Source: Carallia brachiata
Lineage: Eukaryota > Streptophyta > Magnoliopsida > Malpighiales > Rhizophoraceae
Direction of reading: 5' to 3'
Assembly (NCBI GenBank): GCA_021464245.1
Contig: JADCRB010000030.1
Coordinates: forward strand, 3,612,213-3,676,212
Length of the DNA stretch: 64,000 nucleotides
The position numbers and the translations under genes are program-made. Below, one piece after another: positions 8,301 to 34,370 of the stretch (position 1 is its first letter; the number at the start of each line of letters is the position of its first letter). The notes under the pieces were generated by a model, which worked only from the letters and a program-made list of their open reading frames with translations, was not told where the DNA came from and did no database searches.

Positions 8301-8388
8301 CTATTTAAACTGGGATTCCGATCAACAACCTACGGAAAACAAAACACCCCACAGGCACAAACTGAAATAGAAAGAGAGAAGCAGAGAG

Positions 8389-11300
8389 ATGGAGAGGGAA
8401 CAAGATTGCAGGGCGACCCAACTAATAGACGGCAATGGCGTCTTCAACGAGGGGGGCCTCAACCAATTTATCGCCACCACGGGGTTAGCCAGCTGCGGCA
8501 GCTCCTACAGGGTGGTGGCCATCATCGGCCCCCAGAGTAGCGGTACTTATATATATATAATATATATAATATATGCTTCTTCCTTTTCTTTCCTTTGGTT
8601 ATCCATGTCCAGTTCTTTTTTGATATGCGCTAAAAAGGAGAAGAAATTATGTTTTATCATTCATGCTTAATGCTTTGGCTTTGTGGGGATTGCATGAACG
8701 AAGCTCATTTAAGTTTTCTTTGTGACAACACACACACACACACATATTACGTATATGCAAGTGGTTACTGCATCCTTCACTCGATGTTCAGATATCCCTC
8801 CATTGTTGACAGGTAAAAGCACCCTGTTGAACTCTCTTTTCCATACAAATTTCAGGGAACTGGATGCGCGTATGGGAAGGTGTAGTATTTTTGCCTCTTG
8901 CATGCCTTTTTTTTTTTGGCCTTTAAATCTGTTTGTTTATCATTGCTTTATGCCACTTAATTAATTTTTTGGCTGCTTTTGCACACACCTTTTGAAGGGA
9001 AAGCAAATATTTAATTATTTATTTATTTCAGGAGTCAAACAACCAAAGGCATTTGGATTGCAAAGTGTGTTGGCATTAGGCAGCCGTTCACAATCGCCAT
9101 GGATTTGGAGGGAACTGATGGGAAGGAAAGAGGCGAGGTATATATTCTGCTAGCAGCCTAGCCTTTTTTTCCTGATGCAAGGCTTTTTGCTTGTTGAATT
9201 TTCTTTTTCTTATACTATTTATGGATTAATGTATTGTTCTCTTTTTTCCCATGGAAACACTACATGTATTAATGCTTTGAGATCAACATGAAATAGATAT
9301 GTTTTATTTTCTTAAAATGATTTGTGTCCTTAATTTCTCTTGTGATATCTTGAGGTTGTTTTACCATGTCCCATCTGTGAGTATGCGGCTCTAACAGCAA
9401 AACTGGAAAAGAATTCACAATTTTAAAACAATTCTGATTTTCTAGTCGGGAATTTTTGGTCTTCCAGGATGACACAGCTTTCGAAAAACAGAGCGCACTA
9501 TTTTCTCTAGCAGTTGCTGACGTTGTGTTGATCAACATGTGAGTTCTTCTACTTATAAACTGTGATGTCTAGGTGCTTCTTGTGCCAGATGTATAATAGA
9601 TGCCTGCTTTCGGGAGACAGTTACAAAATTTAAAATCTATTTCTTCCCTAAATGTAAGTCTGAAGATATAGCATCGCTGTTGTCCCCATGGTGTTTCTTT
9701 AGGCTATAGGAACAACAGTCATCCAGATAGATAATGTTGTCCCATTTCAATGAAGGTCTGCCTTTTTAGCCATGAAAATCATCCCGTCTAAAGAAGTAAA
9801 AATGAGAAGAAAATGGATCTGATATTTCTTTTTTCCCTTTTTGTGATATAATTCTATCTTTGAACTACCTTGAAGAAAGGTTCTGATCCGTTGTGTCTTC
9901 TGACTTGTACTTTGTACATAGAAATGAAAAGGTGAAGCTGAAACTTCTTGTATCATGTGCACATATGCAATTTCTCTTAGAAGGAAAGAGATGATTTTTT
10001 TAACAGATTTTGCAATCTACACAGGTGGTACCATGCCATTGGTCTTAATCTGACTGCAAACAGACCCCTCCTTAAAACAGTGTTTCAGGTGCCCGAGCTG
10101 TTTGTCTACAATCAGCATGTGACCAATGGTGTTGTATTTTGTATGTTCGAATTAATCTCATCATATTTTCTTCAACTGTATTGTAGGTGATGATGCGCTT
10201 GTTTGGGTCACGCAAAAGGACTCTGTTGTTTGTAATACGTGATCATACAAAGGTCTGGATATATTTCCACAAGTTATGTTTCTTTTCTTGAATTATACCT
10301 CCTAGTTCCATACCGATGCTGTATCCTCGTGATGGTTGTTCATGTAGACGCCACTTGAACGTTTGGAGTCTGATCTTAAGATAGACATTCAGAAGGTATT
10401 GTTGTGCATAACACGTTGTACTCTTGCAGTCATGTTTACTAGACATATATTGTTAATTCTACTGGGGAGTTTTCATAATTTTTTTTATTTTATTCTTGCA
10501 GATATGGGATGAAGTTCCTAAGCCCCAGGCTCATGAGAATACTCTGCTCAGTGATTTTTTTAATGTACGAAGATGCTGCTACTGTTTATCTCTTCTCTTC
10601 TTATAATGTATTCTATTTCTATTAAAAATGCTATGCCGTTGTTTTCCTACCTCGTTGTCCTCCAAATATTTCTCTGTCTTTCAATCATTTGTAAGTTCTG
10701 GTTTTCGTTTGTTATTGTTGAAAATGAAGGTGGAGGTCACAGCCTTACCTCACTATGAATACGCAGAAGAGCAGTTTAAAGAAAAGGTAAACCTCATGTT
10801 AGAATGAACATTTTAGTTAGCCTTAAGGGTACTACTAGTATAGTCGTCACAACTGGTGAGTTCCGAAACTTTTTCTAATATCCTCAGAAATAACATCTTT
10901 TTAAGAAGTCACAACCAATTGCTTAATCATTTTCCCTATTTGACAGACAGCATAATATCATATATGAATAATATTACATGCTTGCAATCCAATGTTTTTA
11001 TGCAGGTTGCCCAACTCAGGCAGCAGTTTTTTGATTCATCTCTAGGAGGACCTGCCAGTGATTGGCACAGTGATGCCCCTGCTTCAGGATTTTCAGCCAG
11101 TGCCCAGTGCATCTGGAATACCATAAAAGAAAACAAGGATCTGGATCTTCCTGCTGTCAAGGTTAATAATAAAAATCCAATTTAAATTACATGGACACAT
11201 ATTCCAAAGACTTAGCTCTTATTATTGAGTTTTTTTTATTATTACTGTTATTATAATTATTATGGTGTGTCTCTCTCCGGTGTGTTCATCAGGTGCTGGT

Positions 11301-14240
11301 TAATACTGTACATTGCGACCAGATTTGTGATAAGATGTTCAACCAGCTTACCAAAGATGAGGTACTTCATTGCTCCATTTTCTGAATATACTCCCGCAAA
11401 AATAAATATTTTGATGCACACAATACTTGGTCACGCTTATGCAGAGCTGGTTAGAAACAGAGAAAAATGTTCGAGCAGGTGTACTCGTTTCGAAATTTGG
11501 GGAAAACATCAGCAGTATTCTGCAAAACTATCTTTCAGAGTAAGTGTCAGATTTGGATACATTGTGTATATTTTATTGTGATTAAGGTTCAACAGTCAAA
11601 TATGTGTTCTTAAGAAGTTCATCAGAACACCAAATATATTTAATCTAGTTTGGACTTCGAATGCTTATCTGCCCGATCTTTTACCTGAAGCTAAAGCCAA
11701 TGCTGATATTTTCTTGTGTATGACGTTGGTTCCTTCGACAACCGATTGATTGCCTATCTACTGCAACTTTTTTCTTTTTTTTCAATAGATATGACAGTGA
11801 GACAACTCAATGCGACGAGGGCATACGAAATAAGAAAAGACAACTGTTGGAATCAAGAGCACTGAATGTAATGCAAACTCTCCTTGTCAAGTTATTCTTT
11901 TTTGGGTTGCATCGGTGCTGGACGTGTGATTCTGGCATTGAACTAGCTAGTAAATTGCATCACAAGTCCCAGTGAATAATCTTTTTTTTTTTTTTGGTAC
12001 ATTTTGCAGTTGGTGTATCCTACTTATGCTACGTTATTAGATCACATATGCTCTCAAACGCTTGAAGAGTATAAGATTGAGCTGGAGAAGTCACTGCGCA
12101 GAGGAGAAGACTTTGCTGCTTGTAAACAGTCTGCCATCGAAGAGTTTAACAAAAAGTGCTCAGGTATACGCAATGTTTTCAAAACCGGCCAGTACAACCA
12201 ATTTAACCAGTGACTGACCAAATTTCTAGTCCGTTCATAGTTGGTTTTGAAGTAGTTTGTGAACCAATCAAATCTGATAAAAACTAAGGTTTTAAGAACT
12301 AAATCAGTCATTGAACTAAAAAACTCAAAAGTTTAAAATTTAACCGGTTTGATCGGTTTAATCGTGATTGAATTAGTAAAATCGATATTTAATATTAAAT
12401 GTATAAAATAATAATATATAAAATGTAATATAAAGTGCAATATATATATGTGTGTGTATATAGTAGAATACGAATATTTGCAAATTTAATATATATTATA
12501 AAAAAGTAAGATTAAAAAATTAATATATTAATATATGTAATAAAAATAGAAAATATATTTAATTCATGTTTTTTATTTAAATTAATTCATATTTTTTAAA
12601 AATTAATACAATAAGGTGGAAAAAAAAATACAATTAAGGAAATTTGTTGAGTTTGTAGTATAATTTTAAAATTTCTTGACGTTATATTTTGAAGGATTGT
12701 CTAAGTTCAAGAGTTTAGAACAAATAATTAATGAAAGAAAGAAAAGAAAAAGAAAATTTAATGAAAATAATAAAGTAAGTGAACCCCAAAGGATTAAGCA
12801 TATGATGAACAAATAATTAATGAAAGAAAGAAAAGAAAAATAAAATTTAATGAAAAATAATTAAGTAAGTGAACCCCTCAGGATTAAGTATATGATATGT
12901 AAAAGGATAATAATAATAATAGTTAACAAATTGGAATGTGGTTTAGTGGTGCTTGACATACTCTTTATACTTGCGATCATAAGTTTGATGCTTTCGGTGG
13001 GAGAACTTTCATATTTTTGGCTTTTGTTGACTGAAGTTGACTGAATTATTTAAATTAGTAATATTGTGACTGGTTCTTTAGTTTACGGTCGAGCTAGTTG
13101 GTTTTTCGATTCTCAAATTGGTTTACAGAGCCTATGGTTTTTTGAGAGAACAGACGGGACATTGGGCCAATTCTCGATTTTTTTAGTTCGGTGGGTCGGT
13201 TCAGTTTAATTCTTATAATATTGGTAAAAATTAGACTGGTTAGAGCAACTGAATAAAACCAACAGAAATTTAAAATTAAAATTTGGCGTCAAATTTTATT
13301 TAAATTATAATTTAAATCTTTAAGTTAATTAAAATATTAAATTTAGTCTTTACAACAAAAAAAATTAATATTCAATCAATATTTATAAATATTATTTTTT
13401 TAATCAATTATATATATATATATACTAATTGTATCAATTTAATTACTGATTAATTTGATTGGACTAATTAAATTTTAAATTATTAATTCTTTTTGTTCGA
13501 TGATCGATTTAATTTTCACGACTTTATTTATATGTTGGTTATACGGGCCACATCAAAGAATAAGAAGAAAACAAAAGGCCTACGTAAGAGATAACCTGCA
13601 GATATGTACAATTTGACTTCGTATTACTGACACCTTTACCCCGAGGATTTGACACAGATTTTGTGGAAGAGTCTGTCAGAAATTAGGGACAAAGGGACGT
13701 TTTGGTTCAACAGCAAGATTTTTTCTATGTTTATGTAATGAAAGTTGAAAACAGTATCAATTTATTGACTTTTTTTTTATTTTTGTTCTTTTACAGAGGC
13801 TGCCGTAAAACATGCTGATTGGGATGAATCAAATGTTGGGGAAAAACTTCGCCATAGCATCGATTTACACACGGCCTCTGCGTACAATGCCAAGTTGTCG
13901 GAACTGGAGAACAAATACAAGGTTATTTAGTTGAACTCACAATCCGTTCCTTCGCCGCTTAATTTTGTTTGTCGTGCTCTTACTTTGCAATGCCTTGGTG
14001 TTTTCTTTTCTTCAGGATTTGGGCAAAAGTTCAAATGCATGTGCGTCTACGGCTGCAGTGCAATCTTTATATGCATCTGCCGCTACGACTGCGACTGCAC
14101 TTGCCAATTTTCGCGTTATTGCTTCATCAAATCCTTATACTGCCATGGGTTTGGGCATAAGTTTGGGCGTCGTGTGTCTGGTGCAGACTGTCGCCGGCGT
14201 AGTGATCCATGCGATGAATAGTAAAAAAAAAGAAGGGTAA
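8389..14240 (+). CDS. RHD3-like (Sey1/atlastin-type) GTPase with a novel C-terminal tail, copy 1
   Basis: Sixteen exons join in frame to 532 aa: 8389-8542, 8813-8879, 9032-9137, 9468-9538, 10025-10088, 10187-10252, 10348-10395, 10502-10564, 10730-10786, 11006-11161, 11293-11361, 11445-11539, 11789-11867, 12010-12163, 13797-13921, 14016-14240. All introns are GT-AG. The GTPase domain is complete: P-loop GPQSSGKST (47-55), switch I TT (77-78), DLEGTDG (98-104) and the RD guanine-specificity motif (172-173). RHD3/Sey1 proteins are dynamin-superfamily GTPases that fuse ER tubules. Residues up to about 458 match RHD3. The rest of the helical domain and the two-helix membrane anchor (family length about 800 aa) are absent. 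Exon 16 gives a 74-residue tail with an Ala-rich stretch, a hydrophobic segment (about 500-524) and the ending KKEG. It is the only one of the three copies without a frame break. The start ATG lies at the same place relative to the GTPase domain as in copies 2 and 3. The function of the shortened form is unknown. Confidence 0.85.
12164..13796. repeat. Repeat-filled intron 14 of copy 1
   Basis: This 1.6 kb intron is much longer than in a normal RHD3 gene. Its start carries a sequence rich in AACCGGTT-like words that is shared with intron 14 of copy 2 (about 28595-28975) and with 52085-52740, so it is a dispersed repeat. Copy 1 carries about 0.9 kb more of this material (about 12300-13240) than copy 2. 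Within it is an 89/90-bp tandem duplication, 12718-12806 and 12807-12896, each unit starting GAACAAATAATT and ending TATGAT. No coding sequence is seen. Confidence 0.6.
14016..14240 (+). other. Novel tail exon of copy 1
   Basis: This last exon of copy 1 follows a consensus polypyrimidine-CAG acceptor and encodes 74 residues plus a TAA stop. It has no resemblance to RHD3 exons 16-22. In order it holds an Ala/Ser/Thr-rich part (tail residues 8-38), the hydrophobic run [16 protein letters not shown] continuing to about residue 66, and a basic end KKKEG. Compared with the copy 2 tail it lacks the first 8 codons, a 24-nt in-frame deletion at the acceptor. I do not recognise the family. The hydrophobic segment is long enough for one membrane pass. 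The Ala-rich part could form a second, weaker one. Confidence 0.75.
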
Positions 14241-15489
14241 GTCTTAGGAAGAAAACTATATAAAAACTACAAAAATGATTAAAAATAATTTTCTTCCAAA
14301 ACCTTGTTCCCCGTGATTTTCATATTATGGGTCTTGAAGTCCGTTAGACGATGGTAACCTAATAAGGTTTAAATTTCAGTCACTAAAATGTCATGAAGAA
14401 TACGTGAGAGTGAGAGTGAAACTTGTAACTTTTAGTTACAGTAAAGTTATATGTAATGATTATGATATTTCATTTGATGCAGCGTTATATATATTAATTA
14501 AAGCAGGCATCTTACTTTTTTGTTTTTGTTTTTGTTTTTTTTTTTTTTACTTTTAAATATTTCTGTTAGTTGGAGAACTAAAATTCAGGCCATATGTATA
14601 GGACAAATGAGTCTAGCTGAACAAGGAGGCTGCGGCCGGGCCCTTTGATGTTTGGTTTAATTAGTTGATAGCAAGTTAAAAGTTATTGTTCGATAAATTA
14701 TTATTCAATATGCTTAATCCAAATGATATTATAAAAATTGTTGTGAGTATTGGATCTTTGTTAAAATTTTAATAAAAATTCACTCCAACATAGATTGAGA
14801 ATATCCGATAAGATCAGCGGTAGATTTTTGCAAATTTTAATATTTGCATCTTTTTAGTCCTTACTCCACAATATTCTTATTCGTAATTAAGCTTGCTGAG
14901 TTTTTTTTTTTATTAAAAGGTCTGTTGAGTCGTAAGTTATATAATAAAAGTAGTTTTTTTCATTCTCATAAATTTTATACGTTTTTCTTAAAATTAAAAT
15001 TCAAAATTTCTAATATAAAAATTTTAAATCTTACCACTGTAGTATCTCTAAAGAGAGACTATTGAGTTTATGCTTGACATGATGCATTGAGTTGATTAAA
15101 GTTGAATTTGAGTTATTCCATGATTGGTAGATATTAATTTACAATCATCTACAGTTGGAAAAGATTTTTATATTTTCATATTATTAACGTTAAAGTCACG
15201 CGATGTGTGCATTTATTAAATTTATTAAAAATTTTATTTCGGTAAAAAGCTATTTAAATATATTATAATTGTTTTTAAAATCTAATTCAAACTAAATAAA
15301 AGAAAATTCAAATTGTTTTTTAAAAAATAGATAAAACTCTACTAACTAATTTTGACTGGCCCCTAAATTTACCAAACAAGCGAATATGGGTCAAGATTGG
15401 CATGACGCCATAAGCGAACGGCTGCCGTAATTCTGTTCTATGGAAGAACCTTATAAGCACCTTTTTTTCTTTTTGTGCACCCTAATAAG
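14241..15489. other. 3' flank of copy 1, duplicated downstream of copy 2
   Basis: No gene is seen. From the stop codon to about 15180 the sequence is homologous to the flank of copy 2 (30250 to about 31425), showing that the duplicated block included about 0.9-1.2 kb of 3' flank. The rest is AT-rich. Confidence 0.6.
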
Positions 15490-16130
15490 TAGAGGTGTCA
15501 AAATCTGATCCGACCCGATGGGTTGATCTGAACCCGCCCGAAAAAATACTACCCGAACCCGACTCGAAGGATGACCTAACTCGAAATGACCCAAACCCGA
15601 ATGACCCGAAAATCTTTGGGTCAAACCCGACCCAACCATAACCCGACCCGTTTGACCCGAACTTTTTTTTTTCTTAAGGGAACAAAAAAATAAAATGAAA
15701 AAATTTAGCATATTTTATATTATAAAAAGTATAGATTATACTATTTTCAATATAAATCTTAATTATAAATTTTTTTAGAATATTTTGAGATTTTTTATAC
15801 AGTTTTAAATTTTATTTTAATTTTTAAAAATATTTTAAAAGAAAATTTTTCAAGTATTTTTCAATCATATGGTTTTTTTTTTATTTTTAAGAATTTTTAG
15901 TAAAATTTTTGAAATTTTAAATTTTTAAAATTTTTAATAAAAAATGTCACGTCATCATTTTTGATGACGTGACCAACCCGTGGGTTGACTCGAACCCGAC
16001 CCGAACCCGAAGTGACCTAACCCAAAATGACCCGAAGATAACTTGACCCGTAAGTGACCCGGCCCGAAGTGACCCGAACCCGAAGTGACCCAACCCGAAC
16101 CCAACCCGATGACCCGTTTTGACACCTATA
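15490..16130. mobile_element. Non-autonomous hAT-type MITE (641 bp)
   Basis: The ends form an imperfect terminal inverted repeat: it begins TAGAGGTGTCAAAA and ends TTTTGACACCTATA. An 8-bp target duplication, CTAATAAG, is present at 15482-15489 and 16131-16138. The 8-bp duplication and a terminus of the T(A)NNGGTGTCAAAA type fit plant hAT elements. The interior near both ends is built from many GACCCGAAC-like words in both orientations around an AT-rich core. It has no transposase reading frame, so it would need a transposase supplied in trans. Confidence 0.75.
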
Positions 16131-16637
16131 CTAATAAGTACGTACTGTTTGTGGGCATGTATACTAAAACCAAAACCTAGTTACAATTCCATGGATTGAT
16201 TAAGCTAAAGCTTACGTGCTAATATTATGTCTTTTTGAATTAACTGAATAATTTTTCGTTTCTAAAAGAAAGCATTATTTTTAATAACAAAGAATAATTA
16301 ATAATAAACAAAAGTAAAAGAAAATCCAAATAGAAATTGTTCAGAATATGAATGTTTTATATACATACCACCGCCTAGGGATGGATCCATGAATGTTATT
16401 GGCTTGTGATAAGTAGTTGGAGGCAGATTAATGAAAATTTAAAAAGAAAAAATCCATGAAGAAGAAGAAAGAATAAACATACCCGACCCGACTGTAGAAA
16501 CTGGTAGAATTAATCTGGACGACCTCGATAAAGATTTTGAATTAAAATTCAAAATCAGCAAGAGTTCAACAAGTATTTCACTTTATTACTATCATTATAT
16601 AGTAAAAGGTTCCAATCCCCTAAGTCACTGTAATTTC
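16131..16637. other. AT-rich spacer between the hAT MITE and the copia element
   Basis: No gene or clear repeat is seen. The stretch ends in ATTTC (16633-16637), which is one copy of the copia target-site duplication. Confidence 0.5.
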
Positions 16638-16824
16638 TAAAGGATGACACCGGGTTTGCAATCTAAAATCAAATTCAAATACAATCTGTTTCCAACAGCA
16701 TTTATCCTTTTATCTCTTCTATAGTTGAAAATAACACAACTGCTGTACACATACAACTCTTGTATTATATATTATCTAACAATCAATGAAAAACGTGAAG
16801 CAAAATTCCAACAAATTCTCTTTA
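16638..16824 (+). repeat. 5' LTR of the copia element
   Basis: The repeat begins TAAAG and ends CTTTA, so its termini are a perfect 5-bp inverted repeat of TA...TA type rather than TG...CA. The boundary is fixed by the ATTTC duplication on the left and the primer-binding site on the right. Confidence 0.85.
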
Positions 16825-16836
16825 TGGTATTAGAGC
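16825..16836 (+). other. Primer-binding site (tRNA-Met type)
   Basis: TGGTATTAGAGC lies immediately after the 5' LTR. Plant copia elements typically use TGGTATCAGAGC, complementary to the 3' end of initiator methionine tRNA. There is one mismatch. Confidence 0.8.
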
Positions 16837-16859
16837 TGTCTCGCTTAACAGCTTCTTCA

Positions 16860-17765
16860 ATGGCCATAGAAATCACCAACTTGTCATCCTCTACCACCAA
16901 TGTCCAACCCACTGTTATTACACAACAAAACCCAACAGGCCTTGTGGCCATCAACACCACCGCTCAACTCCCATTAAAATTGACAGCTTCAAACTATTCT
17001 TCATGGAGGGCACAATTTACCTCTTTTCTACTAGGTTATAATCTTGTTGGTTATATTGATGGGACTCTTCCCTGTCCAGCAAAGACACTCACTCAAGGTT
17101 ATACAATATCTTCAAATCCAGACTATGAAACTTGGTTTCGACAAGATCAATTGCTGTTACATGCTAGCATTGCTTCTGTATCTGAGACATTAGTCTCTTC
17201 AATAGCCTCCACAACAACTTCTTGTGAGGCTTGGGAGAAATTAGCAAAAATATTTGCTAGCTGTTCCAAATCAAGGATCATGTCCTTAAAGGAGAAACTA
17301 TTTGAACCATATGGAAACAAACCGATTGCTACATATCTTCAGCATATCAAAACAATTGCCGATGAATTGGCAATAATTGGTGCACCGCTTCTTGAAGAAG
17401 ATCTTATTGTTCATATCCTCAATGGTGTTGGCTCACAATTCGAAAAACTCACAGTTACAATTCAAGCCAGAGAAACATCGATATCATTTGAAGAATTACA
17501 CGACAAACTAATTGACTATGAGTCAATTCTGAAAAAGGAAGATAATTCCTCTAATTTTCCAACAACAATTCAATATACAAGGCGGACTCCACCAAATTTT
17601 CATTCCAATGGCTTTTGATCAAGTCCAAGAGGCAGCGGCTCCAACATTCAATTTTCCTCCAGCCTGCAGTCTAACCCGAAACGGCCCACGTCTATGCAGG
17701 GACAACCCGGTGTGATATGCCAAATCTGTGACCAACTGGGGCACTCTGCACGACGATGCTATTGA
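16860..17765 (+). pseudogene. copia gag region, broken
   Basis: The frame opens at the ATG at 16860 and is stopped by TGA at 17616-17618, then continues in the same frame to a second TGA near 17765. The first part resembles the UBN2/retrotran-gag domain of copia elements, including the pattern W..L...F followed by a helix-rich region. After the internal stop lies a zinc knuckle of CX2CX4HX4C type (about 17719-17762), as expected for a nucleocapsid domain. The in-frame TGA separates it from the body of gag, so no intact polyprotein is made. Confidence 0.8.
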
Positions 17766-17786
17766 GGGAAAAGGTTTTTTAATGAC

Positions 17787-20700
17787 TTGTGCCCAACCGT
17801 AAACAAGACAAAGGTCATTCCAAATCGTGATTCAACCTGGATTGTGGATAGTGGTGCAACGCATCACGTAACAACTGAGCTGAACAATCTTTCTACCTAT
17901 ATGGACTATACTGGTGGAGATGAAGTGGTGATCAGTTATGGAAAAGGTTTGAATATCACTCATAGTGGCTCTGCTCTTCTTCCTTCTTCTTCTCGTCACT
18001 TTACACTCAATGATATATTATGTGTCCCAACTATCCAAAATAATTTATTATGTGTTTCCAAACTTTGCCAGACTAACAATCTCTATCGAATTTTTTCCAT
18101 CTTATTTTTTGTGAAGGATTTAAATACAGGGGCAATTATGCTCCAGGGACTAATTTAAGACAATGTTTATCACTGGTCGTCTAGGAGTGTTCCGTCTAAT
18201 GCAAGTTCGAGAACTTTCATTGCCAAACTGAATTCCTCCTTTACATGGTACTAGCGGCTAGGCCACCTATCATCCTATGTTTTAAACCATGTTCTCAGTC
18301 AATTTTCAGTGTCTAGTACTAAGGATAATTCACTGTGTAATTTTTGCCACTGTAATAAGAGTCATTGTTTACCATTCCAACAATCTAGTTTAACTACTAG
18401 TCATCCTTTAGAATTAATTTATAGTGATGTTTGGGGACCCTCACGTGTTCAATCTGTTGATGGTTATCGATACTACGTTACTTTTGTTGATCATTACACT
18501 CGATTTGTGTGGCTTTATCCCTTGTTTAAGAAATTTGATGTTAATTGCATTTTCCAAAAATTTAAAGTTTTAGTTGAAAAACAATTTCACCATCCGATTC
18601 TTTCTATTTATACTGACGGTGGCAGAGAATATCAATCTTTAAAAGCATATCTTGCCTCTCACAGTTTCACTCATCATCTTACCCCCCCTCACACGCCCCA
18701 ACATGATGGCCTATTAAAGCGTAAACACCGACACATTGTTGAAATAGGCTTAACTTTACTCACCAAGCTTTCCTATCGTCAAAATTTTGGATCTACGCCT
18801 TTAAAATAGCTGTTTATTTAATTAATCGTCTGCCTACTTCCATTCTTCAAATACAATCGCCTTATCTCAAATTATTTCATTCCCCACCAAATTATTCCAA
18901 ATTAAGGGTCTTCGGGTGTCTATATTATCGTTGGCTTCGCCCTTACACCACTCATAAATTAGGACTCAAGTCTATCCCATGTGCTTTCCTAGGCTACTCA
19001 CCCACCCAAAGTGCATTTCTTTGCCTTGACCCGATGTCAAATAAAGTACACGTGTCTCATTACGTAATGTTCTTTGAAAATATGTTTCCTTTTAGTTTCG
19101 TGCCCAAGTCACCAACCAACTCCTCTCAAAATTCCGTAGACACTTGGTCTACTATTACTTTGCCTAATCCATCTCCTATTTTGCCTCCTAGTTTGTCACT
19201 CAATGCATGTCCACCCGCGGAACACTCGGATGGCAATAATGCATCTGCTATTGGTCCCACTGAGTTATCCACCAATTTAAATCCTTCCCCAGAAAATTTA
19301 GCTGCCAATTCGAACCCATTCTCTTACCCATGTAATCCAATCCTAGTGGTAACCCAAACTCATTCTTATCCTCATCTGAAAGTCTCTAGTTACCACCAAT
19401 TCAAACACAAGTTGATACCCCAACAACCCAATCCACTGACCCGGCTATTCAAAATTCCAACAACCACTCAATCCCTCCACTAGATCCTAATCAATCATCT
19501 TCTACTCAAGCTAAACCGACACCAACTCTTTCACAGACTCCAGCATCCCATCCTCTTCGAACCCACCCAATGATCACAAGGTCCCTAAATCAAATTTTTA
19601 AGCGGAAGAAAATACTTCACGCCACCAAACATCCTCTTCCTGATTCTATTGAACCCACTTGTGCCAGTCAAGCCCTCGAGGATCCTCTTTGGCGTGCAAC
19701 TATGAGTGATGAATTTAATGCTTTGGTTGCAAACAACACATGGACTCTTGTCCTCGCTACCTCTGCTACGAATGTTGTTGGCAATAAATGGATTTTTCGC
19801 ATTAAGCCGCATGCGAATGGTTCCATCGATCGACACAAGGCACGTCTTGTAGCCAAAGGCTTCCATCAGTGGTCAAGAGTAGATTTTTAGAAAACTTTTA
19901 GCCCTATTGTTAAACCAACAACAATTCGCACGGTTCTCTCGTTAGCTGTCACCTATGGCTGGTCCTTAAGACAGTTAGATGTCAACAATGATTTTTTGCA
20001 GGGAACTCTCACTGACACGGTCTTTATCTGGTTTTATAGATCCTGATCATGTTGTAAATTGCATAAGGCCATATATGGCCTTCGCCAAGCTCCACCTACA
20101 TGGTACGAGAACTTAGTTCCTTTCTTATTCAACAAGGCTTCACTAATACTATTTCTGACAGCTCACTCTTTGTGTACAGCTCTGGTTCTGTCAAGCTCTT
20201 TTTACTAGTCTATGTAGACGATATCATTATTACTAGCAACAATGAAGCTGCTCTGGCTCAAATGCTCACTCTTCTATCTGATCGGTTTTTATTAAAGGAT
20301 TTGGGCCCACTCCATTTTTTCTTAGGCATGGAAGTTATACCATTTGCGGATGGCTTGCTCCTATCTCAACAACAATACATTAGGTGCCTAATTGACACAT
20401 TTAGGCTTGATGCATCCAAGCATCATGCGACATCACTATCCCCTGCTCATCAAATCACGTTGCATGATGATTCTAGTATGCCAAATGCCACACGATATCG
20501 ACAATTGTTGGGCTCTCTTCAATACTTGTCACTTACTCGGTCGGATATTACCTTCTTAGTTAATAAACTCTCTCAATTTATGCATGCACCAACCCAGCTG
20601 CACTGGACAAGCCTTAAACGCATCTTATGTTATCTTAAATTAACAATAACCCATGGCCTATTATTGCAAAAGGGAACTAGTTCGTCACTATCTCTAATTG

Positions 20701-21125
20701 CTCATTGTGATGCTGATTGCGGTGGGAACCTTGATGATCGCACGTCTACTTCAGCTTATGTAATTTTTCTAGGCTTTAATCCCATCTCCTAGCAGTTTAC
20801 TAAGCAACGCACTGTCGCCCGATCATCGACAGAAGTTGAGTATCGTGCTATAGTTAGCACAACGGCAGAACTTTCTTAGATCACCAATCTTCTTCAAGAA
20901 TTGCAACTTCCGCTAACCGAGCCTGCTAGGATCTTCACAGATAATGTTGGCATCACTTATCTCTCTGCCAATCCAGTCTTTCACACCCAGATGAAACTTC
21001 TTGCTCTCGATTATCATTTTGTTCGTGAATTAGTTCAATCCAAAAAAATTGTTGTTTCCTATATTTCAACCTGCGAGCAAATTGCGGATGCCCTTACTAA
21101 AAGCACTCTCCAAGCATCGGTTTAG
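17787..21125 (+). pseudogene. copia pol region (protease, integrase, RT, RNase H), broken
   Basis: Domains appear in order across several frames. An aspartic protease motif DSGATHH lies near 17846. An integrase with an HHCC-type zinc finger and core acidic positions in SDVWGP and TDGG lies at about 18309-18809. Reverse transcriptase spans about 19690-20330, with the catalytic motif YVDDIIIT near 20210. RNase H spans about 20690-21110, with the copia ending that includes ADALTK. Stops near 18158, 18809, 19890, 20792 and 20880 and a frame change around 20040-20100 break the polyprotein. The region is a relic. Confidence 0.85.
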
Positions 21126-21179
21126 TGATCTCAGGTCTAAGATGCCAGTCGTTGAAGCCACCTCCATCTTGCGCGGGCA

Positions 21180-21365
21180 TAAAGGATAACACCGGGTTTG
21201 GAATTTAAAATCAAATTTAGATACAATCTGTTACCAATAGCTTTATCCTTTTATCTCTTCTGTAGTTGAAAATAACACAACTGTTGTACACATACAACTC
21301 TTGTATTATATATTATGTAACAATCAATGAAAAACGTGAAGCAAAATTCCAACAAATTCTCTTTA
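21180..21365 (+). repeat. 3' LTR of the copia element
   Basis: This is the direct repeat of 16638-16824 with about 10 substitutions and one indel by eye. It is preceded by a short G-rich stretch (about 21169-21178), a poor polypurine tract, and followed by the target duplication ATTTC. Confidence 0.85.
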
Positions 21366-21370
21366 ATTTC

Positions 21371-23790
21371 CTCCTCTTATATGGAAAATCTAACCTTTAA
21401 ATTTTCCATGGCCCCAAGTGTTTAGTTGGACTTTTAAGTATTCTCTTTATGATCTCCACTACTTACACCTCCTTTTTTTTTTTTTTGTCCCTCTCAGCCT
21501 CTCTTCCAAATATTAGTAATCTGTTTACGTGTGGAACTTTGCGAGAAGAAAAAAACTAGTCTAGATATATATATCTGCACTTTATAAAATTATGCATTTG
21601 CATATAGAAAAAATGCTCTAAAGAGACGGCAATCGTAGAGCATGTCCACTGTAAGAACCTAAGGGATACAAACACTGATCAAAATGAGAACTCCGGGCCA
21701 CAATCCATATTAGTTTTTTATACTAATAAAATAAAATAAATCCGAACTCCAAATGCACAACTACAGTTACACGTCTAAACGGCAAAATCATCCAAAAGAA
21801 GCAAATCAATCCCTAGCTCCCAAACATTCAAAGGCAAACACGAGGTAGAAGAGAACCTGTTCAATGAAAAGGAACAAAACCACCTCAACCACAAGAAAAA
21901 GAAAATAACTAAGCAACAAGGTAAAACACAAGCACAATATCCACAAGGAATAGGAGTTTAGCCTAAAAGCACTTTGCCCACCCTCGATTTCTTGCATGCC
22001 CCCCGTTATAGGTCGACTCCCCATCTTGGCTTTCTTGCTTTATTTTGCCCTTATTCTTTTTGCTTCTCGCTTTCTTTTTCTTCTTCTTCTTTTTTTTTTT
22101 TCCTCAAAGACACTAGTTTCTTACTTTTGGTTTCTTCGTTTTCTTTCTTTTTTATTTCAATGTATTTATTAAAATTATTTTTATTTATTTTTAAAATTAT
22201 TATAATAATTTTTTTTATATTCATATTATCATTTTAATAATTCTTTTATATTCGTATTATCACTTTTTTTTTTTAAAATATCTTATTTTTTAATGAAACA
22301 AATTATTAGTGATGATTGTTATTAAAAAGAAAAAAAATTAAAAACATATTATACATCAAAACATATATTTGTTTACAAATTGACTTCAATTTTATTAGTT
22401 ATAACAATTGTAGCAAATATTTTTTTACAATGAATATTATGAAGAATCTCTTACACAATCACACGAGATTAATAACTAAATATTTAAACGATTACTTACA
22501 TTAAAAAAATTATTTGATTGTATAAACAATAAAAAAAATTTAAAACATTAAAATTCATATGATAAAACTATGATGTTTATTATTAATAATAATTAATTTA
22601 ATTTGCTATTTTTATCGCATATATTAATTTTTACATTTGTATTTGTACATACAATATTTATTCTCTTGAAAACTTTTTCTAAATCTGTCATTGTGTGCTG
22701 CTCTTCAAGATTGAAGTGCAACTTTGAAGTCTACTATGTTTCTAGCATTAATCTTACTAAAATATCGCTATAACTTATTAAATAACTATTATATAAAAGA
22801 TAAAAATGAATAAATTAAAAAATAGATAAAGAACGAAATGAATACGAAAATGGGTATAAAACGGGAACAATCATTCCCCTTTCTATCCTTGTCCTTGTTT
22901 CCACAAAAAAAAATTCGAAAAACAGCAATTTCTATCCCATTATTTAATCAAACGACATTAACCTTATATCTGTTAAAATAGATACGGATAATCTCTAATA
23001 AATATAGCTAAAATTGCAGTACTGCATGAATGGGTGGAATCACTTGTCCTAGAGGAGAAAGAGATGGGGCAGAAGAAGAAAACTTTGTCAGTTCCATGTA
23101 GGGGGCAATTGTTGCCCACCTTACTTGTAGTGTATTTGGATCATGACATTTTGATGCAAAAAAAAATTATTAAAAAAATTGTGAGAAACTAATAAAAAAA
23201 GTAAAATTTTATATTTAAATTATATAAAAAAAATAACAAGAAAGAAAAATATATGAATAAAATTATAAAAAAGACCCTGCAAAAGATTGAATAACAAATT
23301 GAAATTATAAAAAAAAAATCCTCATAAACAATTAAACAAATGGAGGTTATTTTAGTCTTTACACTTATTTGAGTTTGATTTTTGGCCGATGCTATTTACA
23401 CGTTGAAATAACTTTATACACGCAAAAAACAATGATGGAAGCCCACTTTTAACTATTATTTGTGCGTGTAAGAAGCTTTTCTCTGCGTGAAAATATCAAT
23501 CCCCTTGATTTTATTGTTTTCTAACTGCTTTGACTCGCTCTTCTAACTGAGTTTATAACTAGTTTCCTATGAGTTGCCAAACAAAGAGAAGACTTCGATT
23601 GCTGGAATTTTCTTTCAGATTCTTTTCACATCAGGGGGGCGGGCCTCGCACGGCGCCACGTCCCCCCACTGGGGTCCGCCAAACTTTGAAAAAATTCCAG
23701 GAAACCCAAGCGGCGACGTGCCTTGAGGGTTGAGGCTGTCCACCTGAATTAAGACTTTGACTTTTCATCGTACGTTTAATTAAAGAGACT
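21371..23790. other. AT-rich intergenic region upstream of copy 2
   Basis: No gene is seen. About 22060-22270 is a pyrimidine-rich and T-rich stretch whose Phe/Ser-rich open frames are compositional. Around 23415-23490 is a small foldback with TACACGC and GCGTGTA arms that resembles 49901-49975. At 23630-23690 is a short GC-rich patch. Confidence 0.5.
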
Positions 23791-25301
23791 GGAAAACGCA
23801 ACACCCTTATGAAAACAAAACACACACAGACACAAACTGACATAGAAAGAGAGATGGAGAGGCAACAAGATTGCAGAGCGACCCAACTAATAGACAGCAA
23901 TGGCGTCTTCAACAAGGAGGGCCTCAACCGATTCATCGCCACCACAGGTTTCGCCAGCCGCGGCACCTCCTACAGGGTGGTGGCCATCATCGGACCCCAG
24001 AGTAGCGGTACTAATTTACTCTATTTATATATATCTATATGCACAGATGGCCATTGCATGTCAATCTCTTTTCTTCTTCCTTTTCTTTCCTTTGGTGATG
24101 CATGTCCAGTTCTTTTTAAATATTTGCTGAAAAGGAGAAGAGATTATATTTTATCATTCATGCTTAATGCTTTGGCTTTGTCGGGATCGCATGAACGAAG
24201 CTCATTTAAGTTTACTTTGTGACATACACACACACATATTACATATACGCAAGTGGTTACTACATCCTTTACTCGATGTTCAGATATCCCTCCATTGTTG
24301 ACAGGTAAAAGCACCCTGTTGAACTCTCTCTTCGGTACAAATTTCAGGGAACTGGATGCGCGTATGGGAAGGTGTAGAATATTTGCCTTTTGCATGCTTT
24401 TTTTTTGGCGGGGGTGGTGTGGTGGCTTTAAATCTCTTTGTTTATTATTGCTTTATGCCACTTTATTAATTTTGTGGCTGCTTTTGCACACACCCTTTTA
24501 AGGGAAAGCAAATATTTAATTATTTATTTATTTCAGGAGGAAAACAACAAAGGGCATTTGGATTGCAAAGTGTGTTGGCATTAAGCAGCCATTCACAATT
24601 GCCATGGATGTGGAGGGAACTGATGGGAAGGAGAGAGGCGAGGTATATATTCTCCTAGTATCCTAGCCTTCTTTCCCGATGCAAGACTTTTTGCTTGTTG
24701 AATTTTCTTTTTCTTATATTATCTATGGATTGATGTATTGTTCTCTTTTTTTTCCCATGGAAACACTACATGTATTTATGCATTTATTGAGATCAACGAG
24801 ATATGTTTTATTTTCTTAAAATGATTGTGCCCTTAATTTCTCTTGTGATATCTTGAGGTTGTTTTACCATGTCCCATTGTGAGTATGCGGCTTGAACAGC
24901 AAAACAGGAAAAGAATTCACAATTTTAAAACAATTCTGATTTGCTAATTGGGAATTTTTGGTCTCCAGGATGACACAGCATTCGAAAAACAGAGCGCACT
25001 ATTTGCTTTAGCAGGTGCTGACGTTGTATTGATCAACATGTGAGTTTTTCTAGTTCTAAACTGTGATGTCTAGGTGCTTCTTGTGCCAGATGTATAATAG
25101 ATGCCTGCTTTCGCGAGACAGTTGCAAAATTTATATTCTATTTCTTCCCTAACGTAAGTCTGAGGTTAGAGCATCACTGTTGTCCCTACACTGTTTATCA
25201 GTGCTAGAGGAACAACAGTCATCCGGATAGATGAAGTCTGCCTTTTTAGGCATGAAAATCATCCCGTCTAAAGAAGTAAAATAAGAAGAAAATGATGTAA
25301 T

Positions 25302-26241
25302 TAAAACTGCAAATGAATCGATAAGTTTATTAAAAACTCGATGTCTTGTTCGGTAAAAGTTCGGTTTGGGCTCGTTCATTTAACTAAACGAGTAATACAC
25401 GAGTTTAAAAGTAAAATTCATTTAATAAACAAGTCGAGTGTGAACAGAGGTATGATCGGTTTAGTTCGGATTCATGAACAGCTCGTTTAAAACTTATTTA
25501 AAATACAATAAATATATCATTAATAACTTGTTTAATTTGTATCGTTATAAACTCATTTAATATATTAATAACACTTAATTATATCATTTAACTTTTAATA
25601 TAAATAATTATCAATTTAGAGTTATGTCTGTTATTTCATATACTTATTTGAATAAGATTTATATGTGATTAACGCTGCAAGTAAATTGATATCTTCGTTA
25701 AAAGTTTGGTCGTTTGGTTTGGTAAAAACTTGACTTGAATTCATTTGTTTAACTAAACATGTGATATATGAGTTTAAATTCAAAACTCGTTTAATAAATA
25801 AGTCGAGTCTGAACAAATATAAATTTGGTTAAACTCATGAACAACTTGTTTAAGAACTTGTCTATAATAATAAAAAAAAAATCATTTACTATATTATAAA
25901 AATAATTTCATCAAATTTATTTTCAAAATTATATATTACATATATTTATATTTATACATTAAAACTAAATAATTATTTTTAATTATTTAATTTTATTGAA
26001 ATAAATGATTTTTATCCTTTCATTTTTATATATAATAATAAAAATTGTAATTTTAATTGTTTCGTTGGTATTATAAAATTAAATGATACAGTTCGTTAAA
26101 AACTCAAAAATTCAGTTCGATAACAGCATGTTCGACTCGAGTTCAACTCGTCATAAATGATACTGATACTGAGACTCGTTTAATAAATGAACCGAGTTAG
26201 CAAAATTCGGCTCGATTCGGCTCAACTTGGTTGCAGTCCTA
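25302..26241. mobile_element. Non-autonomous hAT-type element in intron 4 of copy 2 (940 bp)
   Basis: An 8-bp duplication, GATGTAAT, flanks it at 25294-25301 and 26242-26249. The ends are an imperfect inverted repeat: TAAAACTGCAA at the left, and TTGCAGTCCTA at the right, whose complement is TAGGACTGCAA. The corresponding intron of copy 1 is uninterrupted, so the insertion came after the duplication. Inside are repeated GTTTAACTAAAC-like and GGCTCG-like words and no transposase frame. Confidence 0.75.
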
Positions 26242-28594
26242 GATGTAATATTTCTTTTTTCCTTTGTTCTAATATAACTCTATCTTTGAACTACCTTGAA
26301 GAAAGGTTCTGATCTGTTGTGCCTTCTGACTTGTACTTTGTACGTAGAAATGAAGGGGTGAAGCTGAAACTTCATATATTATGTGCAAATATGCAATTTC
26401 CCTTAGAAGGAAAGAGGTGGTTTTTTTAACAGATTTTACAATCTACACAGGTGGTACCATGCCATTGGTCTTAATCAGACTGCAAACAGACCACTCCTTA
26501 AAACAGTGTTTCAGGTGCCCGAGCCGTTTGTCTACAATCAGCATGTGACCAATAGTGTTGTATTTTGTATGTTCGATATTAATCTCATCATATTTTCTTC
26601 AACTGTATTGTAGGTGATGATGCGCTTGTTTGGGTCACGCAAAAGGACTCTGTTGTTTGTAATACGTGATCATACAAAGGTCTGGATATATTTCCACAAG
26701 TCATGTTTCTATTCTTGAATTATACCTCCTACTACCATACTTACGCTGTATCTTCCTGATGGTTGTTCATGTAGACGCCACTTGAACGTTTGAAGTCTGA
26801 TCTTAAGATGGACATTCAGGAGGTATTGTTGTGCATAACACGTCGTACTCTGCAGTCATGTTTAATTCTACTGGGGAGTTTTCATAATTATTTTTTTAAT
26901 TTTTTGCAGATATGGGATGAAGTTCCTAAGCCCCAGGCTCATAAGAATACTCTGCTCAGTGATTTTTTTAATGTGCAAAGATGCTACTACTGTTTATCTC
27001 TTCCTATAATGTTTTCCATTGCTATTATAAAAATGCTACGTTGTTGTTTTTTCCTACCTCGTTGTTGTCCTCCAAATACTTCTCTGTCTTTCAAGCATTT
27101 GCAAGTTTTGGTTTTCATTTGTTATCTTTGAAAATGAAGGTGGAGGTCACAGCCTTACCTCACTATGAATACGCAGAAGCGCAATTTAAACAAAAGGTAA
27201 ACCTCATGTTGGAATGAACATTTTATTTAGCCTTAATGGTACTACTAGTATAGTGGTCACAACTGGTAAGTTCCGAAACTTTTTCTAATATCCTCAGAAA
27301 TAACCTCTTTTTAAGAAGTCACAACCAATTGCTTAATCATTTTCCCTATTTGACAGACAGCATAATATCATATATGAATAAAGTTACATGCTTGCAATCC
27401 AATGTTTTAATGCAGGTTGCTCAACTCAGGCAGCAGTTTTTTGATTCATCTCTTGGAGGACCTGCCAGTGATTGGCACACTGATACCCCTGCTTCAGGAT
27501 TTTCAGCCAATGCCCAGTTTATCTGGAATGCTATAAAAGAAAACAAGGATCTGAATCTTCCTGCTCTCAAGGTTAATAATAAAAATGCAATTTAAATTAT
27601 ATGGACACCTATTCCAAAGACTTAGCTCTTATTGTTGTGTTTTTTTTTTTTTTTTATTGTTATTATAATTATTATGATGTATCTCTCTCTGGTGTGTTCC
27701 ATCAGGTTATGGTTGCTACTGTACGTTGCAACCAGATTTGTGATGAGATGTTCAACCGGCTTACCAAAGATAAGGTACTTCATTGCTCCATTTTCCGAAT
27801 TTACTCCTGCAAAAGTAAATATTTGATGCACACAATACTTGGTCACGCTTATACAGAGCTGGTTAGAAACAAAGAAAAATGTTCAAGCCGGTGTACTCGT
27901 TTCGAAATTTGGGGAAAACGTCAGCAGCATTCTGCAAAACTATCTTTCAAAGTAAGTGTCGATTTGGATACATTGTGTATATTTTACTGTGATTAAGGTT
28001 CGACAGTCAAAATGTGTTCTTAAGAAGTTCATCAGAACACCAAATATATGTAATCTAGTTTGGACTTCGAATGCTTATGTGCCCGATCTTTCACCTGAAG
28101 CTAAAGCCAATGCTGATATTTTCTTGTCTATAACGTTGTTTCCTTCAACAACCGATTGATTGCCTATGTACTGCAACTGTTTTTTTTTTTTTTCAATAGA
28201 TATGACAGTGAGACAACTCAATTCGACGAGGGCATACGAAATGCAAAAAGACAACTGTTGGTATCAAGAGCATTGAATGTAATGCAAGCTCTCCTTGTCA
28301 AGTTGTTCTTTTTTGGGTTGCATGGGTGCTGGATGTGTGATTCTGGCATTGAACTAGCTTTTAAACTGCATCACAAGTACCAGTGAATAATCTTTTTTTC
28401 TTTTTTTTTTGTGTTACATTACGCAGGTGGTGTATCCTATTTATGCTACTTTATTAGATCACATATGCTCACAAACGCTTGAAAAGTATAAGATTGAGCT
28501 GGAGAAGTCACCGCGCAGAGAAGAAGACTTTTGCTGCTTGTAAACAGTATGCCATCCAAGAGTTTAACAAAAAGTGCACAGGTATATACAATGT

Positions 28595-28975
28595 TTTCAA
28601 AACCGGCCAGTCCGATTAGTTTAACTGGTGATTGGTCAGGTTTTTGGTCTGAGTTTTGGGGCAGTTTGTGAACCGATCAAACTCGATAAAAACTGAATCA
28701 GTTGGACCAGCCAAATAGGACCAATAGAAATTACAAATTAAAATTTGGTCTCAAATTTTCACTTAAATTATAATTTAAATCCTAAAGTAATTAAAACGTT
28801 CAATTTAATCTTAAAGGTTGTCAATACTTTCAATTTAGTCCTCATATTATATATATATATATACCGGTTCTATTAGTTTAATTATTGGTTAAATCGATTA
28901 GATTAGTTAAACTTTAAACTATTAATTTTTTTAGTTTGATAACCGGTTCAATTTTAATAATTTTAATTGTAAGTG
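28595..28975. repeat. Dispersed repeat in intron 14 of copy 2
   Basis: This sequence is shared with intron 14 of copy 1 (from about 12175) and related to 52085-52740. It is rich in AACCGGTT-like words and has no coding content. Its presence at the same place in copies 1 and 2 means it predates their duplication. Confidence 0.55.
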
Positions 28976-29111
28976 GGCTATACGGGGCACATCAAAGAAG
29001 AAAAGAAAACAAAAGGCCTACCGCCTGCATAAGAGATAACCTGCAGATATGTACAAGTTGACTTCGTCTTACTGATACCTTTACCACGAGGACTTGACAC
29101 AGAATTTGTGG

Positions 29112-29629
29112 GGGATAAACATATTTGAATTCTTAAACTTTTAGGTTTTTTTACGTTTGAGTTCTAAACTTTTTTAAGTTCTAAACTTTTTTAACGTTTT
29201 ATTTGAGTTCTAAATCTTTTAATTTTTTACTATATCAGTCATTTAAGTTACAAAAAGTAATCAATCCATTAATAAGTGAGTTTAATTTAATAAAAATTAT
29301 TTAAAAAAGTTTAAATACATAAATTAAATATTTTTTTCATCAACAAAATATACATATTAAATATTTTTTAATCAACAAATATACGAATTAAATAGGTAAC
29401 ATGCATATTTTTTTATAGAAAAAACATTCAATTCATATATTTAATCTTTTTTAAATAATTTTTTGTAAAGTTAAAATTATTTTTTAATAGATTGATCACT
29501 TTTGTTAAACAGATGAACTGATTTGGTAGAAAATCAAAAGGTTTAGAACTCAAATGAAATGTTAAAAAGGTTTAGGACTCAAACGTAAAAAAAAACTTAA
29601 AGATTTAGGACTAAAAAATTATTTATCCC
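29112..29629. mobile_element. MITE with 10-bp target duplication in intron 14 of copy 2 (518 bp)
   Basis: The element begins GGGATAAAC and ends TTTATCCC, and the inverted relationship continues well inward. The target duplication GAATTTGTGG lies at 29102-29111 and 29630-29639. The unoccupied site can be read in copy 1 near 13655 (GATTTTGTGG). It is the same family as 47987-48479. The 10-bp duplication suggests mobilisation by a Mutator-like transposase. It has no reading frame of its own. Confidence 0.85.
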
Positions 29630-29997
29630 GAATTTGTGGAAGGGTCTGTGAGAAATTAGTGACAAAGGGACGTTTTGGTTCAACTGCAAGATCTTTTTCT
29701 ATTTTATGTAATGAAAGTTGAAAACAGTATCAATTTATTGACACCTTTTTTTTTTTTTTTTTTTTTGTTCTTTTACAGAGGCTGCCGTAAAACATGCTGA
29801 TTGGGATGACTCAAATGTTCCGGAAAAACTTCTCCTTAGCATCAATTTACACGCGGCCTCTGCGTACAATGCCAAGTTGTCGGAATTGGAGAACAAACAC
29901 GAGGTTACTCAGTTAACCTTACAATCCGTTCCTGCACCACTTAATTTTGGTTGTCTTGCACTTACTTTGCGATGCTTTGGCGTTTTCTTTTCTTCAG

Positions 29998-30249
29998 AGT
30001 GCTTTAGACGACCGGCAGGAAGATTTGGGCAAAAGTTCAAATGCATCTGCATCTATGGATGCAGCGAAATCTTTATATGCATCTGCGGCTGCGACTGCGA
30101 CTGCACTTGCCAATTGTGGCGCTATTGCTTCGTCAAATCCTTATACTGCTATGGGTTTGGGCATAAGTTTGGGCGTCGTATGTCTGGTGCAGACCGTTGC
30201 CGGCGTAGTGATCCACGCGAGGAATAGTCAAAAAAATAAAGAAAAGTAA
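29998..30249 (+). other. Novel tail exon of copy 2
   Basis: The exon encodes 83 residues plus TAA. It starts SALDDRQEDLGK, 8 residues longer than the copy 1 tail, then continues with an Ala-rich stretch, the same hydrophobic segment, and the ending QKNKEK. In the 30 codons from ASSNPY to the end of the hydrophobic segment the two copies differ at six sites, all synonymous. In the preceding Ala-rich part there are about nine replacement and two synonymous differences. Confidence 0.75.
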
Positions 30250-33200: not shown

Positions 33201-34370
33201 GTTCGAACGGAATCAAAATTGAATCAAAACTAGATTAAACTGGACTAAAATTGATTTTTTTTTTTTTTTACAGAAACTGGACTAAATTGATAGTTGAATT
33301 GGAATTGGAATTGGCCTAGGAACGCCGGTTAACTGAGCCATCTGAGGAACGTAAGGTTCAACCTTCTCCCCAATCCAAATTGCCAGTTTCAAACCATAAT
33401 CGGCCAGGCCTACTTCATAGGATCCACGAGCATTTTTTTTTTAGGTTTCGAATCCACGAGCATGTCTTATACACGCATTCAGCCCATTGCACGTCCACCT
33501 GATTCTCATTTATCTGCTGCAAATCTAAAATTTCTATTTTAAAGGTATTGAATTCAAATCTTAAAATAGAAGTTGACGAGTTTATGAAATAAAAAAGATA
33601 TTTTGATTGTGTAATTTATATTTTAATAAATTTTTTAATGAAAAAAAAAATTTTTTTTTCCATTTCGATCTTATTTTTCCATTGCCTTACCCTAGTGATT
33701 TGTTTTAGTAAATAGGAAACTGTGGAATTTTGAAAACCAAACCGAAAAAGTTTTGACACTGTTGACCATTTCAAAAAACTATAATCAAACAACTTTTTCA
33801 AGTTTCTATGTTGGCTATTTCTAGAAGATTACTGCTCTCAACCTTCATTTTTTAATTTTTTATTAATTTGTGCCATTAGTTTAGACGGTTGTCTCTTATC
33901 TCAATTTGGTTAATTTAAAAAATTTAATTAATATTAACAATTTAATTCAAATATAACTTTTAAACCATTCAAAATAATGCTAGTGCAATTTTTTTTTTAA
34001 ATTTCATTTTTTTTCTTTCGTTGGTTATTAATTACCAATTATTATTTAAAGTGGTTAAAATTCTAACTTCTATTTTAAAAATATTAAATTTAAATTTAAC
34101 AAAAAAAATAATTAAAATTATAAAAAAAAGTTATCTTAATTATATAGTTGATAATCTCGTGAGCTTATTGATGAAAAACATCAAAAAGGGAAAAGAAAAA
34201 CAGAAACGGAAGACAAATGACCGAAAAACCAGAGCCGCACAGCGCACGCACTCTCTTGCTTTATGTCTACTCAAAAGACAAAGGCAAAGGTCGCAAATTT
34301 TTCTAATAATTTCGTTGTTTGTCTAAATTTTTGAGATTAAGACCGACCCTTTTGTCTGTTTGTGAGAGAG
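30250..34370. other. Intergenic region between copies 2 and 3
   Basis: To about 31425 this is the duplicated 3' flank shared with copy 1. It is interrupted by about 0.2 kb of extra AT-rich sequence near 30525-30750, bounded by ATTAGTGTTC-like and AACATTAGCACT-like words and possibly another MITE. There is a poly-A run at 31958-31981 and a (TA)n run near 32968-32990. Short open frames around 32010-32250 and 32655-32885 have no recognisable homology. No gene is supported. Confidence 0.5.

Follow-up and report, generated by a model that had tools for sequence, protein, structure and literature searches.

A putative short RHD3-type GTPase with an orphan C-terminal exon in Carallia brachiata

The locus

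Three tandem genes of the RHD3 GTPase family lie on the forward strand of a 64-kb stretch of DNA from the plant Carallia brachiata. This stretch, called the window here, is C90:3612213-3676212 in an assembly of 337.5 Mb and 164 contigs; positions without a contig name are counted from its first base. The exon models of the three genes were assembled from splice junctions. Copy 1 has exons 1-15 at 8389-13921 (exon model and Pfam) and one further exon, the tail, at 14016-14240. Copy 2 has exons 1-15 at 23854-29903 (exon model) and a tail at 29998-30249. Copy 3 is an RHD3 gene with 22 exons at 34430-42602 (exon model), where 42602 is the end of a frame-shifted model; similarity to Citrus RHD3 continues to about 42822. 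Copy 3 is labelled 'RHD3 homolog 2' after the names of near relatives among the matches listed.

An earlier, sequence-only reading had described copies 1 and 2 as two GTPases with a new tail. For copy 1 this description stands: the gene encodes an RHD3-type GTPase that is shortened and carries another hydrophobic segment at its C-terminus. For copy 2 the description fails, since the assembled sequence contains a frameshift.

Gene structures

The copy 1 model consists of 16 exons and 15 AG/GT introns. Its frame runs uninterrupted for 532 amino acids (aa), in agreement with the open gene and GTPase of about 530 aa proposed earlier, and the phase at the end of every exon from 1 to 15 is the one found in copy 3. 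The same RHD3 exons and phases had been claimed for copy 2; its exons 1-15 are present, and its phases agree up to exon 13 and are shifted by one extra base from exon 14 on.

Copy 2 has the exon layout of copy 1, with AG/GT introns in the part comprising exons 1-15. Its exon 14 (28427-28581) measures 155 nucleotides (nt) versus 154 in copy 1, and sequence comparison places the difference in a TTTT run at 28529-28532, which is TTT in copy 1. The frameshift leads to a stop at 28541-28543, after 403 aa. The extra base may be a real frame break or an assembly error; copy 2 may be a sister copy whose break is recent or exists in the assembly alone. Intron 4 of this copy carries a 947-nt insertion relative to copy 1 (25295-26241), AT-rich by reading.

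Copy 3 has seven exons beyond exon 15, namely exons 16-22. Downstream of copies 1 and 2 (13922-23800 and 29904-34300) these exons have left no convincing trace. The best tblastx match there has an E value of 0.44, and the best blastn match, at E 0.034, is on the opposite strand. Similarity to Citrus RHD3 in tblastn stops at query residues 456 and 461 at these two copies. The earlier statement that the last seven RHD3 exons are absent from both copies is thus borne out.

Copy 3 had also been treated as an intact RHD3 reference. It does have 22 exons, including exons 16-22, but its frame is broken before its membrane hairpin: a 2-nt deficit in exon 19, at 41017-41021 on the forward strand (QFKG then DRVHG, where relatives have QFK-x-ETEY), causes a frame shift and a stop after 676 aa, ahead of the hairpin exons. 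Consequently, none of the three window genes encodes the RHD3 hairpin as assembled. The frame shift may be an assembly error. If it is real, no copy 3-type gene found in the genome encodes a hairpin.

The GTPase and helical domains of copy 1

The Pfam family PF05879 (RHD3_GTPase) matches residues 46-281 of copy 1 with 338.5 bits (cut-off 42.4). PF20428 (Sey1_3HB) matches residues 324-458 with 96 bits (cut-off 24), over profile positions 2-140 of 419. A Citrus relative covers positions 2-419 of the same profile, so copy 1 is without the full-length helical domain. The GBP domain, PF02263, scores 18.1 bits on copy 1, under its cut-off of 21.1. In a model of a Citrus relative, the cut (Citrus residue 461) falls within a predicted helix at 431-478, after helices at 324-342, 348-394 and 399-421.

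The GTP-binding motifs GPQSSGKST, TTKGIW, DLEGTDG and RDHTK, which we take to be G1-G4, are kept. Near-invariant positions were defined as those with a conservation of 97.5% or more among 119 plant relatives (the 120 listed minus P0001, which is internally repeated). An alignment with Candida Sey1 covers 182 of them, 97 common with Sey1 and 85 plant-only. Copy 1 keeps 90 of the 97 shared positions versus 61 of the 85 plant-only ones (Fisher P 0.0003). Five of its seven losses at shared positions are mild by reading: M68L, R105K, A122S, V351I and F386Y. The pattern can be read to mean that the core still works and that plant-specific surfaces have changed.

The tail exon

The tail of copy 1 is 74 aa long and comprises an Ala-rich stretch, a hydrophobic segment, the C-terminus MNSKKKEG (net charge +2) and a stop. 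That of copy 2, 83 aa in its own frame, is 8 aa longer at the start, ends in RNSQKNKEK (net +3) and is 81% identical with the tail of copy 1. The final 16 bases of the acceptor (GTTTTCTTTTCTTCAG) are identical in the two copies. The exon proposed from the sequence alone, behind a good acceptor, is confirmed in its coordinates, Ala-rich stretch, hydrophobic segment and stop.

Hydropathy peaks at tail residues 46-64 (mean 2.30), versus 1.57 in the best window of exons 1-15, which lies inside the GTPase domain. For the tail by itself, two helices (6-38 and 40-72) are predicted with modest confidence (mean predicted local distance difference test score 69.8). Together with the model of the Citrus relative, this makes a helical stalk running into a membrane helix plausible, and the tail may also be a two-helix hairpin. 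The plant mitochondrial dibasic motif, -R-R/K/H-X where X is not E (PMC4154396), is absent from both tail C-termini.

Several observations show that the tail is more than a chance open frame. In both copies the frame of exon 15 stays open across the tail, with 1-4 stops in each of the remaining five frames; the GC content is 0.47 versus 0.28 in the following 300 bases; and the two insertions or deletions (indels) between the tails measure 24 and 3 nt. The tail matches the 337.5-Mb genome only at copies 1 and 2, and since it is common to both copies it predates their split.

The tail had been suggested to be partly a degenerated exon 16. This is not borne out: DNA similarity to exon 16 is no better than that of shuffled sequences (P 0.35 and 0.76 over the full exon and 0.34 over its first 40 nt). 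In intron 15, by contrast, copies 1 and 2 still show a relationship to copy 3, both at the start of the intron (P 0.002) and over its entire length (P 0.016 and 0.024). A deletion or replacement probably started within or after intron 15. The tail itself would be an orphan, either exonised noncoding sequence or the product of a diverged or lost donor.

History of the copies

A maximum-likelihood tree was built from 38 rows, five from this genome and 33 of the 120 relatives listed, picked for spread. Copies 1 and 2 are sisters (100/100) and join with copy 3 (98/86). Long branches may mislead such a tree; the tandem gene order is concordant with it. In exons 1-13, copies 1 and 2 have a synonymous divergence of 0.115 from each other; that from copy 3 is about 0.6.

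Copies 1 and 2 differ at 81 of 1249 aligned bases in exons 1-14 and at 166 of 2450 in introns 1-13 (each about 6.5-7%), and at 155 of 1368 in the sequence flanking exon 15 and the tail (about 11%). Comparison of 8323-15173 with 23799-31423 likewise gives a divergence that is lower as far as exon 14 and higher after it. Because of this difference between the 5' part and the surroundings of exon 15 and the tail, gene conversion is likely to have homogenised the 5' part of the two copies.

RHD3 genes elsewhere in the genome

Searching the whole genome for the RHD3 GTPase family yielded 17 matches at the exon level, spread over five loci: the three in the window, one on contig C25 and one on C132. 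The Citrus RHD3 alignment in tblastn extends to residue 815 on C25 and 784 on C132, so these two loci include C-terminal exons. A genome search for the hairpin exons, in which 54 of 83 candidates were scored, gave matches at copy 3, C25 and C132, plus fragments on C9 and C156.

The fragments are broken C-terminal exons that resemble the C25 and C132 genes, introns included. Three adjacent ones, from the 3' end of such a gene, lie at C9:920157-940291, and a lone 3'-end fragment lies at C156:3324791-3324907. Stops interrupt the exon matches in three of these four fragments. The genome search placed no GTPase part near them.

Selection or decay

Two explanations of copy 1 can be weighed on its pattern of change. 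The first is a coding gene that is still maintained. The second is a decaying cluster, in which truncated tandem duplicates were briefly in frame and are now pseudogenising, copy 1 being the last to break. We regard decay as unlikely, though it has to be taken seriously.

Indels speak for a maintained frame, provided that exons and introns mutate equally, as the tests presuppose. Between copies 1 and 2, exons 1-14 contain one frame-breaking indel versus 15.8 expected at the intron rate (P 2e-6), or versus 9.9 with low-complexity runs excluded (P 6e-4). Exon 15 and the tail contain none versus 6.7 expected from the flanks (P 0.001), or versus 5.4 without low-complexity runs (P 0.004). Nonsense substitutions are absent among the 112 exon differences, where 4.5 would be expected. 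Decay should have left more of both kinds of change, and should not have spared so many of the deeply conserved, Sey1-shared positions. Because frame-breaking indels are scarce, nonsense changes are absent and those positions are kept, the data suggest that the reading frame of copy 1 has been under selection after the split from copy 2.

Other observations weigh against a maintained gene, and a number of them are what decay would produce. The substitutions between copies 1 and 2 are relaxed and not clearly below neutral. In exons 1-13 the ratio of nonsynonymous to synonymous change (dN/dS) is 0.49, with P 0.05 and 0.14 against neutrality under two transition weights; in the whole tail it is also 0.49 (P 0.17 and 0.25). 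Exon 15 has nine nonsynonymous changes versus one synonymous change. Copy 1 retains 152 of 183 near-invariant positions, 31 being altered, versus 176 of 183 in copy 3; the corresponding counts are 146 of 178 in copy 2, 179 of 182 in the C25 gene and 176 of 181 in the C132 gene. Summed over the drawn root, the branch leading to copies 1 and 2 is 0.69 + 0.16 = 0.85 changes per site long, and that of copy 3 is 0.17. Copies 2 and 3 are both frameshifted, and broken 3' pieces of RHD3 genes of the other type lie on C9 and C156. In addition, no relative of the tail that could hint at its function was found (two region-restricted protein searches scored none at E 10 or better), and comparison of the fold with that of atlastin gave weak results.

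Within the tail, the changes between copies 1 and 2 are unevenly spread. The first half has nine nonsynonymous and three synonymous changes, and the 29 codons around the membrane segment have five synonymous and no nonsynonymous ones (P 0.003, indicative only as the segment was picked post hoc). Divergence is small in the noncoding stretch directly following the tail, too, and low divergence by itself therefore carries no weight in this region.

The end of the transcript

The stop codon of the tail lies inside a GTAAGT site that matches the donor consensus at eight of nine positions, at 14237-14242 in copy 1 and 30246-30251 in copy 2 (both on the forward strand). The tail is for this reason only a putative last exon. 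The site may be there by chance, or it may be a sign of a former or present internal exon. Splicing could continue from GTAAGT, so that the protein would end elsewhere, or the site could once have ended an internal exon of a donor gene. All 15 donors in the copy 1 model have lower scores, 5-7, which fits such a role; GTAAGT occurs 28 times on the forward strand of the window. Either reading is nevertheless improbable, as the downstream AG sites that qualify as acceptors (at least 14 pyrimidines in the preceding 20 bases; seven in copy 1 and 15 in copy 2) give no common continuation, and the downstream stretch, with 32 indel events in 879 aligned bases, looks noncoding.

A soluble product, in which intron 15 is retained and a 460-aa GTPase without an anchor acts as a decoy, is very improbable: the retained intron would bring a stop two codons in, and the exon 15 donor GTTATT is off consensus, but copies 1 and 2 have both kept the acceptor and the tail frame, and another GTT donor (GTTAAT, exon 10) is modelled in all three.

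Neighbouring features

Between copies 1 and 2, at 16640-21365, lies a retrotransposon that is copia-like by sequence reading. It contains a direct repeat of 124 nt with 98% identity (16701-16824 and 21242-21365), which resembles element ends. Behind copy 3, at 43106-45245 on the reverse strand, is an acyltransferase-like gene, fragmented across open reading frames, which we take to be of the BAHD family.

A possible mechanism

The preferred explanation, in which confidence and doubt are nearly balanced, is that copy 1 is a lineage-specific coding GTPase on an orphan anchor and would act as a tether or as a competitor of full-length RHD3. Tandem duplication of a copy 3-type RHD3 gene would have yielded the ancestor of copy 1. 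This lineage would then have lost exons 16-22 and gained the orphan 3' exon, possibly in that order. The product would consist of the GTPase core and the first helical part, followed by an Ala-rich helix, a C-terminal membrane segment and a basic end, with the helices as predicted. Its GTPase domains would form nucleotide-dependent dimers, either with one another or with full-length RHD3 from the C25 or C132 gene. Copy 1 would thereby tether membranes or compete with full-length fusogens rather than fuse membranes alone.

The comparison with animal systems comes from the literature. GTP-dependent atlastin dimers tether membranes, the soluble cytosolic domain of atlastin blocks tethering by endogenous atlastin, and a tether-only atlastin mutant rescues several defects (PMC6628656). 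The transmembrane segments and amphipathic C-terminus of atlastin promote fusion (review PMC3866526; PMC12312388), and RNF112 with a swapped anchor still remodels membranes (PMC12012479). By analogy, copy 1 would be expected to tether or compete and not to fuse well alone, and the role of regulator or tether, which the sequence-only reading had also named, is possible.

The target membrane is a separate matter. According to general tail-anchor rules (PMC4154396 and PMC8644595), a moderately hydrophobic segment with a basic end leans to organelle surfaces. Copy 1 may have a fusion role on a different membrane, though the plant mitochondrial dibasic motif is absent; many TOM proteins are also described as being without it (PMC4154396). 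A stronger proposal is that a fusogen of the endoplasmic reticulum has been remade as an atlastin-sized, tail-anchored GTPase that acts as a homotypic tether or fusogen on the mitochondrial, peroxisomal or plastid surface. This proposal is a long shot; the moderate hydrophobicity of the segment and its basic end agree with the trend described for mitochondrial tail anchors. Since PMF proteins were reported in 2026 to mediate mitochondrial fusion in Arabidopsis (PMC13123921), a mitochondrial role for copy 1 would not fill an empty place.

Relation to known systems

With RHD3, RHD3 homolog 2 and Sey1, copy 1 shares the PF05879 domain, the exon order and phases of copy 3 for exons 1-15, and the start of Sey1_3HB. 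It differs from the RHD3/Sey1 fusogens in its orphan tail, and the sequence behind copies 1 and 2 yielded no exons for the hairpin and amphipathic helix. With atlastin it shares the size class and the order of GTPase, one three-helix bundle and an anchor near the C-terminus; it belongs to the RHD3 family instead, and it has one strong hydrophobic segment in place of a paired hairpin and amphipathic helix.

RNF112 (neurolastin) is similar in that it joins an atlastin-like GTPase to another hydrophobic region at the C-terminus. It is an animal protein with a RING domain, located on endosomes and, under stress, in mitochondria (PMC12012479). Plant tail-anchored proteins have one strong hydrophobic segment near the C-terminus and a short basic end, an arrangement that copy 1 would share if its tail is not a two-helix hairpin; copy 1 differs from the mitochondrial ones among them in being without the dibasic motif (PMC4154396). 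A literature search for truncated, duplicated, tail-anchored or chimeric forms of RHD3, with most subscription journals outside its scope, listed no paper that describes a gene like copy 1 in its title or the opening of its abstract.

Significance

The signs of relaxed selection limit the significance of the case. The published anchor swaps in fusion GTPases considered here, such as that of RNF112 (PMC12012479), were laboratory constructs, and copy 1 would be a natural one. If the preferred explanation is true, the mechanical part of a fusogen has been cut to its first three-helix bundle and placed on an orphan anchor. Copy 1 would then provide a natural test of the RHD3 stalk length needed for tethering, as well as a case for how new exons turn into membrane anchors.

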